Shown: piece by piece, positions 5,789 to 23,515 of the stretch | Layout: each line of letters starts with the position of its first letter | Numbering within the stretch: the stretch's first letter is position 1 | From: an uncultured Clostridium sp. | GTDB lineage: Bacteria; Bacillota; Clostridia; TANB77; CAG-508 | Reading direction: 5' to 3' | DNA: 38,638 nt | Assembly: GCA_947388675.1 (NCBI GenBank) | Contig: CANDRW010000017.1 | Location: 1-38,638 of the forward strand | The notes under the pieces: model-generated | Databases searched by the model: none | Told to the model about the DNA's origin: nothing | What the model saw: the letters and a program-made list of their open reading frames with translations, nothing else | Program-made: the position numbers and the translations under genes

Positions 5789-5908
5789 AAAACATATATG
5801 ATAACGTTTGACCTTGCTGGTCGCAACCTTCTTATTTAAATAAGGTTGGTTGCTCCATGCTCGCTTCGCTCAAACACTGCGTGGTCATTACTTTATCATA
5901 TATGTTTT
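5789..5908 (+). repeat. Family B structured palindrome between nrdD and nrdG
   Basis: Outer arms AAAACATATATGATAA and TTATCATATATGTTTT pair perfectly over 16 bases. Inside are the core ACGTTTGACCTTGCTGGTCG, an AT-rich hairpin (GCAACC...GGTTGC), and ACTGCGTGGTCATTAC. GACC near the left arm pairs with GGTC near the right arm. It starts seven bases after the nrdD stop and has no strong U tract. Copies at 23408 and 13812 share the core with compensating changes. In a bicistronic transcript it could stabilise the nrdD part or set the nrdD:nrdG ratio. Confidence 0.75.
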
Positions 5909-13811: not shown

Positions 13812-13951
13812 CATTAGTTAAGATATTATTACACTTGTTCTTGCTGTCCGTTGCTTTCATATGCGAAAACGCAAATCAAAGAAAGCAACGGAAGGCGCTC
13901 GACAATGTCTCGCCTTGCGCGAACTACGTTCTCATAATATCTTAACTAATG
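13812..13951 (+). repeat. Family B structured palindrome after tsaD
   Basis: Outer arms CATTAGTTAAGATATTAT and ATAATATCTTAACTAATG pair perfectly over 18 bases. Inside, CCGTTGCTTTC pairs with GAAAGCAACGG (11 bases, enclosing TGCGaaaaCGCA), followed by AAGGCG...CGCCTT. The core ACTTGTTCTTGCTG and GCGCGAACTACG match the copies at 5789 and 23408, with GTTC/GAAC in the position of GACC/GGTC and GTCC/GGAC. It begins 11 bases after the stop of tsaD. Confidence 0.7.
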
Positions 13952-16169: not shown

Positions 16170-16775
16170 ATGAAAGAACAAAACAGTTTAGTACCTTATG
16201 TTATTGAACAAACAGCAAAGGGAGAAAGATCTTATGATATTTTCTCAAGACTTTTAAAAGACAGAATTATATTCTTAGGAGAGGATGTTAACCAGACTTC
16301 AGCAAGTTTAGTTATTGCACAATTACTATTCCTAGAGTCAGAAGACCCAGATAAAGAAATTCACTTATACATTAATAGCCCAGGTGGTTCTATTACAGAT
16401 GGAATGGGAATTGTAGATACCATGAACTATATTAAATGCCCAGTTTCTACTATTTGTATTGGTATGGCAGCTAGCATGGGAGCAGTATTGTTAGCAGCAG
16501 GCGAAAAAGGAAAAAGATATGCTACACCTAATGCAGAGATTTTAATTCATCAACCATTAATCGGTGGTGGAGGATTATCTGGTCAAACAACAGAAATCAA
16601 AATCCATGCAGACCATATGGTAAGAACAAGGGAAAAATTAAATAAGTTCTTAAGTGATAGAACAGGTCAATCATTAGAAACAATTGAAAGAGATACAGAA
16701 AGAGATAATTATATGACAGCAGAAGAAGCACTAAAATATGGACTTATTGATGGCATAATGGAAAAAAGAAACTAA
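16170..16775 (+). CDS. clpP: ATP-dependent Clp protease proteolytic subunit
   Basis: 201-residue serine protease that forms the double heptamer degrading chamber fed by ClpX. Catalytic Ser102 lies in GMAASMGAV, His127 in [10 protein letters not shown] and the Asp in the ERDTERDNY block. The start [20 protein letters not shown] is typical. AAAGGGTGG precedes the ATG; GGTCAAA right there is only a half CtsR-like site, so no CtsR control is claimed. Confidence 0.97.
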
Positions 16776-16897
16776 ATTTTAAAAATAATCAGCATCTTGC
16801 GTCGTTGAAAATCATTTTAAAGCAGTCACATACAAAAGTATGCTCCTTGGCTTTAAAATGATTTTCGCCTAGCAATATACTAATTCTTTTTAAAATT
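16775..16897 (+). repeat. Nested palindrome between clpP and clpX
   Basis: Outer arms AATTTTAAAAA and TTTTTAAAATT enclose GAAAATCATTTTAAAGC paired with GCTTTAAAATGATTTTC (17 of 17), whose loop holds CATACaaaaGTATG. It starts at the last base of the clpP stop codon. The architecture resembles family B (arms specific to the locus), but I see little sequence identity with its core. It may protect or process the clpP end of a clpP-clpX transcript. Confidence 0.65.
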
Positions 16898-18323: not shown

Positions 18324-18478
18324 ACTGAAAGAAAACAAAAATGAGAGAGTTCCTGCTTTAGTGGAAGATGAAAAATGAGTGAGCTCATACTTTAGTTGAG
18401 GATATAAATGAGAGAGTTCCTGCTTTAGTGGAAAATTTAAAATTAATAGGGGGTTCAAAAAGAACCCTCTATTTTTTT
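18324..18478 (+). ncRNA. Candidate small RNA with three tandem hairpin repeats
   Basis: Bounded by a promoter (18289-18317) and a terminator (18448-18478), about 155 nt. It has three 33-34 base repeats starting at 18341, 18375 and 18408. Each has a 4-base stem and a fixed loop TRCTTTAGT: TTCC/GGAA in copies 1 and 3, CTCA/TGAG in copy 2, so both stem sides change together. Each repeat also opens with ATGAG and encodes a six-residue frame (MREFLL, MSELIL, MREFLL) ending in the loop's TAG. It could be a sponge or protein-binding RNA, or a set of mini-ORFs; the paired changes favour RNA structure. I know no named family for it. Confidence 0.5.
18448..18478 (+). terminator. Terminator of clpX and the tandem-hairpin RNA
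   Basis: GGGTTC pairs with GAACCC around five As, followed by CTCTA and seven Ts. Confidence 0.85.
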
Positions 18479-18481
18479 GAG

Positions 18482-18577
18482 TTCTAGGAAAGTGCTGTAT
18501 AGCACTTGACGTAGAAATCAATTATTGCGAATGTTACAAAATCTTAAAAGCTTTGCTTTTTAGAATTTGTTAATTCG
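18482..18577 (+). repeat. Family A two-hairpin element, copy 1
   Basis: First hairpin: TTCTAGGAAA, variable tip GTGCTgtatAGCAC, then TTGACGTAGAA. After the linker ATTGCGAATGTTAC comes a second hairpin, ACAAAATCTTAAAAGC...TTTAGAATTTGT, closed by CGAAT/ATTCG. The minus-strand copy at 37934-38037 matches it along the full length except for the hairpin tips; a shorter relative is at 19141. Confidence 0.8.
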
Positions 18578-18614
18578 TTTTTTGTATAAAAAAATAAAAA
18601 AAGGAGGAGAAAAC

Positions 18615-22051: not shown

Positions 22052-23422
22052 ATGAGAAAAAGAAAGCATGGCAAAAGTAGCATAGTTAAAAATATTCTAT
22101 CAATAGCAATAATGGTAACATCCATTATTGCTTTGGTTGTTATTTATAGTAAGTATAATTATAATGATTTTATCAAAAGTGTACGTGAAAGGGAGAAGAC
22201 CTCTTTTGTACGCGACCAAGAAATAAAATGTTCCGAAATGGATAGTTATAAAATAGAAAATACAGACTATAATGACGCTATGTTTTATGAAACCATTTCA
22301 GTAACACCAAATACCCCATATAAAGTAACTTGTAAAGTAAAGGTTGAAAATGTTATCAATGAAAATGATACGAAGTCTGGTGGAGCACATATTTCTATTG
22401 CAAGTACAACAGAGCGTTCTATTATGCTAGCTGGAACGCAAGATTGGCAAGAAGTTACTTTCTATTTCAATTCTAAAAATAGAGAGGAAGTAGATGTTAG
22501 TTTTAGATTAGGTGGTTATGATGAAAAGTCAAAGGGAACTGCTTGGTTTTCAGATTTTAAAATGGAAGAAGGGGTAGCAAGTCAAAGTAATAATTGGAAG
22601 TTTGTTTGTTTCATTTTTCCAGAAATAGATGTTGATGTTGAAGTAAATGGAAAAGTAGAACATGTTAGTCTCAAGATGTCTGATAGTGATATACAAGATT
22701 TAAAAGATGATATGGCAAGATTCCAAACTTCTATCAAAACGATGAGCCGTAATAAAATGAGTGTTACTTATGACATGTATACGATTCATGAACCAATCAA
22801 ATCACTTTCTTATGATGAGGAAAATGGTTATTATGTTTCCGTGGAGGATGTACATGAGTATATCAAAAGTTATGTAGAAGAAAATGAATATGACCACATC
22901 TATATTGGAATTAGAATGGCTAATTTACAAAAGGGAAGTAATACTTTAACCAATGACTGGATAGGTCTTGGTGGAATGCAGTATCTTGGAATAGGATATT
23001 CTAATATTCGTTTGCCAGACAGCGAAAATAACTATGCCTATAAATATCATTACCGTATTAATACATTCCCAGAAGAAGTGTATATTCATGAATTTTTGCA
23101 TACTTTAGAAAGAAATGCGCAGGAATATGGTTATGAAATTCCAGCTTTACATGATTATGCCCAATATGGTTATAGAGAAGAAAAGATAGAAGGACAAAAG
23201 AAATGGTATATTGCCTATATGAATAAAGAAATTAATGATAATGGAAAAATGATAGGCTTGCCAGAAGAAGTATTTAGTTATAAGCCAACACATGAAAGTA
23301 ATTTTAAATATGGTCGACAGATGAAAGTATTGAAAGAACCTGAAAACTTTATTGAAGTGATTAGAAGTGTTTTTGATAGAGTTAGTAAAATTTTTAGTAA
23401 TTATAAAGAGCAAAATATATAA
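22052..23422 (+). CDS. Membrane-anchored extracellular HExxH metalloprotease-like protein
   Basis: 456 residues. A basic start (MRKRKHGKSS) and one membrane helix (IAIMVTSIIALVVIYS, about 18-35) place the rest outside. Residues about 60-190 look like a carbohydrate-binding/jelly-roll domain (VTPNTPYKVTCKVKVE, DWQEVTFYFNS, TAWFSDFKMEEG). The C-terminal half holds EVYIHEFLHTLERNAQEYGY, an HExxH zinc site with a Glu and a later LHD that could give the third ligand. It is not a family I can name. It is probably cotranscribed after ileS (40-base gap), and its last codons form the left arm of the family B palindrome. Confidence 0.6.
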   Translation: MRKRKHGKSSIVKNILSIAIMVTSIIALVVIYSKYNYNDFIKSVREREKTSFVRDQEIKCSEMDSYKIENTDYNDAMFYETISVTPNTPYKVTCKVKVENVINENDTKSGGAHISIASTTERSIMLAGTQDWQEVTFYFNSKNREEVDVSFRLGGYDEKSKGTAWFSDFKMEEGVASQSNNWKFVCFIFPEIDVDVEVNGKVEHVSLKMSDSDIQDLKDDMARFQTSIKTMSRNKMSVTYDMYTIHEPIKSLSYDEENGYYVSVEDVHEYIKSYVEENEYDHIYIGIRMANLQKGSNTLTNDWIGLGGMQYLGIGYSNIRLPDSENNYAYKYHYRINTFPEEVYIHEFLHTLERNAQEYGYEIPALHDYAQYGYREEKIEGQKKWYIAYMNKEINDNGKMIGLPEEVFSYKPTHESNFKYGRQMKVLKEPENFIEVIRSVFDRVSKIFSNYKEQNI

Positions 23423-23515
23423 TAACGTTTGTCCTTGTTGGTCGCAGGCTTCGCTGCGACAGGCGTTCACTTTGTTCACCTTACGCGGACTGCACTTTTA
23501 TTATATATTTTGCTC
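23408..23515 (+). repeat. Family B structured palindrome before queA
   Basis: Outer arms GAGCAAAATATATAATAA and TTATTATATATTTTGCTC pair 18 of 18. The left arm contains the last codons and stop of the metalloprotease gene, so the right arm is an inverted copy of a coding end. The core ACGTTTGTCCTTGTTGGTCG is nearly identical to that at 5789, and GTCC pairs with GGAC in ACGCGGACTGCAC. The track's queA ORF wrongly runs into this element. Confidence 0.75.

Follow-up and report, generated by a model that had tools for sequence, protein, structure and literature searches.

A genus-restricted family of MITE-like palindromic intergenic repeats with arms that pair within each locus

Three stretches of a 38,638-nt window (contig C17 of a 2.09-Mb draft genome of an uncultured Clostridium sp.; G+C of the window, 29%) combine a common core with flanking arms that differ between loci and yet are complementary within each. 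Is this a conserved RNA, or is it something that is kept palindromic as DNA? The initial annotation spoke of a conserved RNA (or cruciform) fold. Its three copies, at 5789, 13812 and 23408, are all found in place, with the motif (CTTGYTGKYCG) and the inner stems GACC/GGTC, GTTC/GAAC and GTCC/GGAC that it had described. The features, all on the + strand, are:

5789..5804, +: copy 1, left arm (AAAACATATATGATAA); the copy is flanked by nrdD and nrdG-like genes
5805..5892, +: copy 1, core (P1 GACC/GGTC; GGTCGCAACC subtype)
5893..5908, +: copy 1, right arm, the reverse complement of the left arm
13812..13829, +: copy 2, left arm (CATTAGTTAAGATATTAT); the copy is flanked by tsaD and a metallophosphoesterase gene
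13830..13933, +: copy 2, core (P1 GTTC/GAAC; P2 TCCGTTGCTTTC/GAAAGCAACGGA; P3 AGGCG/CGCCT)
13934..13951, +: copy 2, right arm
23408..23425, +: copy 3, left arm; the upstream ORF runs into it, its last codons (E Q N I stop) making up the first 15 nt
23426..23497, +: copy 3, core (P1 GTCC/GGAC)
23498..23515, +: copy 3, right arm; queA lies downstream

The genes around the three copies are ordinary and mutually unrelated (copy 3 lies between an ORF without Pfam match and queA). Both strands of every copy fold much better than shuffled sequence (z of -5.3 to -7.9). With a skew of about +0.25, G is in excess on the + strand of the window, so that all three copies probably have leading-strand sense. 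None of them has the G+C-rich stem and trailing T run of an intrinsic terminator, and a terminator scan of the window returned four terminator-like sites, with no copy of the family among them. Two other repeats share the window: an intergenic palindrome at 16775-16897 whose arms are long and imperfect and enclose a perfect stem of 17 bp (GAAAATCATTTTAAAGC), and, at 18470-18590, a different dispersed repeat (TTCTAGGAAAGTGCTGTATAGCACTTGACGTAGA...) that has many copies in sister genomes.

The unit, designated family B, consists of an arm of ~19 nt, CGTTT, P1 (GNCC, then TGC), TG, the P2 hairpin, the P3 hairpin, P1' (GCG, GGNC), TGCACTT and the second arm; that is, a core of ~100 nt that folds as a three-way junction is enclosed by terminal inverted arms of ~18-19 nt. 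Helices P1 and P2 covary. Among 11 copies, two-sided changes occur at 10 of the 24 core pairs (0/500 shuffles; 1-3 pairs in slid controls), and the larger alignment that the initial annotation had called for, of 62 copies, again places covariation above chance, with 169 two-sided cells as against 36 in shuffles. Arm pairing in 74 copies is 95-100% at the first ten positions, stays mostly at 88-97% until position 17 and is at background at position 20-22, and this sharp end at ~17-19 nt is common to old and young groups of copies. (The pairing is private to each locus: arms taken from different loci mostly score 3-7, compared with 16-22 within a locus.) The P3 loop carries an insertion containing GACGTTGTAATCGGCAAAGCCTCAACA in L036:2132, L083 and L046, and orthologs of the first two are without it. 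That no named family corresponds to these elements is borne out by Rfam, which yields no match at gathering or at permissive thresholds.

A covariance model trained on 11 cores finds ~45 copies in the window genome, where the motif CTTGYTGKYCG has 17 exact matches, and more in relatives: 34 in G020 and 20 in G029, both sister genomes, and 9-24 copies each, of divergent subtypes, in the congeners G002, G023, G017 and G026 (counts based on searches and retrieved stretches of genomes). By the same model, 19 of 30 congeners have no copy above threshold, and 29 sampled relatives from other genera have 0 copies. When 84,980 species genomes were scanned with the exact pattern, matches came only from the 'Clostridia bacterium' MAGs ABMPRH_45_2_1 and ABMPRH_45_1, which correspond to G020 and G029, and from one other genome, whose match the covariance model does not recognise; 32 short-pattern matches in viral contigs are, by that model, every one due to chance. 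A left-end pattern used in search of a long autonomous version returned essentially short copies only. Family B is thus short, non-coding, multicopy and dispersed through intergenic regions. We conclude that it is a new family of MITE-like palindromic intergenic repeats, genus-restricted in the genomes sampled.

Other palindromic elements occur in these genomes. Family C, unrelated to family B, has the motif AAATGTTCCTCGACT, a centre of 112-115 nt and arms that are specific to the locus and pair perfectly over as much as 24 nt. Copies of it lie at the following places:

Family C: L006:2779; L036:144 (-); L133:545 (-); L140:551; L146:519

Since family C has locus-specific arms as well, such paired arms are a general behaviour in these genomes. 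A third palindromic element, L153 (G000:C50:12317-13338), has perfect 20-nt arms (AGAATTAGTCTTAATAGAGC/GCTCTATTAAGACTAATTCT) at a place where the sister genome has family B. Elements are also nested: the P2 loop of a family B copy (L008 versus L101:30) contains a second palindromic element that is lacking from this copy in the sister genome, and in copies from G002/G023 (L050, L058, L065, L066, L071, L072) the core and inner arms are enclosed by a larger palindromic element whose outer arms resemble GACGGARATTTTNGGCAA; one core-less outer copy, L243, is present.

Covariation across repeat copies is widely read as evidence of a conserved RNA, and a structured RNA (leader, intercistronic or trans-acting), with selection on the transcript keeping core and arms paired, would account for the strength of the covariation, for the conservation of the unpaired segments TTGYTG, GCGC, CGTTT and TGCACTT, and for the gene context: in tandem arrangements, where the usual site is between a stop codon and the start of the next gene, family B shares the sense of the genes on either side in 59 of 69 cases. 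With selection acting on an RNA strand, however, G-U pairs should be favoured, and these are no commoner than A-C mispairs, either in the arms (20 vs 23 in 121 copies, p=0.76) or in the core (45 vs 65, one fixed U-G pair excluded). Inverted cores at orthologous loci, random neighbour genes, the lack of family B in most congeners, the existence of decayed copies and the like arm behaviour of unrelated family C also speak against an RNA, which we regard as unlikely; on the sequence comparisons made here, the RNA reading is not supported. The symmetric mispairs, the inverted cores and the unrelated neighbours point instead to the DNA level, and the first two of these, with an unrelated family behaving alike, make it most likely that the covariation, including paired replacement of whole arms, arises there. 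Thus, the fold and its covariation stand as initially annotated, its RNA nature is not supported, and a DNA cruciform or hairpin fits better. Family B offers a natural test case for telling RNA selection from DNA concerted evolution by the G-U/A-C symmetry test.

Where do the arms come from? In the young groups of copies, whose cores are 92-94% identical pairwise, the arms have a consensus, from which they deviate at ~15-20% of positions. Against the consensus for G002 and G023 (TCCCACAATTGTATTA; 29 copies) paired changes number 58, one-sided changes 25 and double-different changes 8, where ~6.6 paired ones are expected by chance; against that for G017 (TTCAAACTAAATATATTG) there are 10 paired changes, with ~1 expected. 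An arm consensus common to the copies implies that arms belong to the element. In the older G000 group (median core identity 78%) the arms have fully diverged between loci with pairing kept: outer arms from different loci are on average no more similar than random flanks, but some pairs are clearly related. The initial statement that outer arms differ completely and still pair is therefore right about pairing and too strong about difference, both for the younger families and for the visibly related pairs L004/L081 and L078/L080. The arms are thus terminal inverted repeats that belong to the element itself. They evolve in concert and outpace the core, and this explains their fixed length as well as their apparent locus specificity in the old group.

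Orthologous copies compared at about 82-98% flank identity have unchanged arms at many loci. At others (L020/L085, L084/L101, L039/L070, L082/L091, L051/L217) replacements are paired, and the double substitutions include T-A to G-C, A-T to G-C, C-G to A-T and C-G to T-A. At L017/L096 the whole arm is replaced on both sides of a similar core; L185 and L151 show one-sided decay. At the orthologous loci L015/L136, L074/L048 and L035/L063 the core is inverted in one genome relative to the other, but at two of these three the cores are of different subtypes and may be separate insertions.

Our preferred reading, which we hold to be probable, is that family B is a non-autonomous palindromic MITE-like repeat in which complementarity between the arms is maintained at the DNA level, most plausibly by polymerase template switching in a hairpin. 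When a polymerase switches template between short inverted repeats, the arms are reported to become homogenised and the spacer to be inverted (PMC8604942). Both outcomes are found in family B. When a strand becomes single-stranded the palindrome would fold, and a polymerase could switch template between the folded arms, so that a mutation in one arm would be copied into the other or erased; the core would occasionally be flipped in the process. Arms would then drift fast but jointly, leaving each locus with a private matching pair, and collapse of the palindrome would leave short core-less palindromes. Both the maintenance of pairing at the DNA level and template switching as its mechanism are inferred. 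That arms change faster than the core is not a necessary outcome of homogenisation alone, and the arms might also stay paired because a DNA hairpin is under selection, for instance as the substrate of a transposase. Close relatives would allow short-inverted-repeat template switching to be measured over tens of independent loci.

Between close relatives family B is present or absent, many orthologous sites being without core, as is expected of a mobile element, with the polarity of gain and loss not fixed. Some core-less sites retain one arm, some a short palindrome and some neither. One-armed sites made flank copying a strong candidate at first: on insertion, ~10-20 nt of the left host flank would be copied inversely (by snap-back synthesis, at a new 3' end), and arms would be locus-specific from birth. 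Only the left arm is present at the sister sites L163, L171, L177, L132 and L176, and different arms accompany near-identical cores (L054/L062, L050:727). In window copy 3 the outer GAGCAA of the left arm is coding, and it is conserved in G029, which lacks the element there; TTGCTC lies opposite on the right. This copy remains a real anomaly, in which pairing has spread into host sequence. Taken with the unrelated arms of near-identical cores (L054/L062, and also L008/L100), it suggests that some arm sequence may be host-derived. (The left arm of L100 lies 3' of an RluD-like stop codon and is non-coding.) Flank copying was nonetheless demoted. Whole arms are common to copies of young families, L171 and L172 retain an ACG that resembles the core edge, and palindromes are collapsed at some sites (one, GTCAATTGAC, in L219), so that one-armed sites are at least as likely to be deletion scars; polarity, too, is without an outgroup to fix it. 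We therefore consider flank copying quite improbable as the origin of the arms. The more specific proposal of a hairpin element that spreads by snap-back DNA synthesis, its folded 3' end copying ~10-20 nt of host strand at insertion, is likewise improbable; if true, it would give each copy a private inverted target duplication and make a transposase unnecessary.

Core-less palindromes at orthologous loci (L159, L160, L172, L155 and L107; also L156 and L169; ~14-20 bp) are also what would be expected if family B had as its target the loops of ~20-bp hairpins already in place, such as terminators, the arms being host palindromes. The occupation of the same intergenic region by different families in sister genomes (L100/L153, L025/L146, L089/L133) and the nesting of palindromic elements (L008 vs L101; the composite in G002/G023) are consistent with such a target. 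The palindrome is, however, absent from most sister sites, young families have shared arms at many loci, and 0/3 window copies score as terminators, all of which leaves little probability for insertion into hairpins. The core-less outer element L243 (in G023) was considered as a virgin target and set aside, since deletion between ACAATT repeats would also produce it and no second example was found. As for target-site duplication, the junctions show only AT-rich repeats of 3-6 nt, which are inconsistent between sites. Searches turned up no mobilising enzyme: families of Y1 transposase and of RT are present alike in carriers and non-carriers and so do not discriminate, and none of the listed Y1 genes of carriers adjoins a listed family B copy.

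Among known systems, structured RNAs in Rfam share with family B a branched fold with covariation, and differ in that family B has no match there and no strand-specific G-U signature. REP/REPIN sequences with TnpA-REP (RAYT) (PMC3116915, PMC8266576) are likewise short palindromic dispersed DNA that is plausibly handled as a hairpin. Theirs, however, is a short hairpin served by a Y1 transposase, whereas family B is a ~140-nt three-way-junction unit with no linked Y1 transposase gene found. One defining feature of each of these two classes was tested and found to be lacking, and family B is accordingly assigned to neither. Template switching, or quasipalindrome correction (PMC8604942, PMC7202029), predicts the homogenised arms and inverted spacers that family B has, but has been reported at isolated loci; here it would span a whole repeat family and drive its arms apart. 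The closest likeness is to the MITE-like repeats (Correia/NEMIS, ERIC/IRU, RUP, RPE; PMC2229807), which are also <~200 nt, palindromic, non-coding, multicopy and intergenic, with terminal inverted repeats, no encoded protein and, in some cases, a location between co-transcribed genes. In those families a common terminal repeat is described, while in family B the arms are almost wholly different between copies and paired within each, and no consistent target-site duplication is established. Family B behaves, then, as bacterial MITEs or small mobile repeats do, with an unusual regime of arm evolution.
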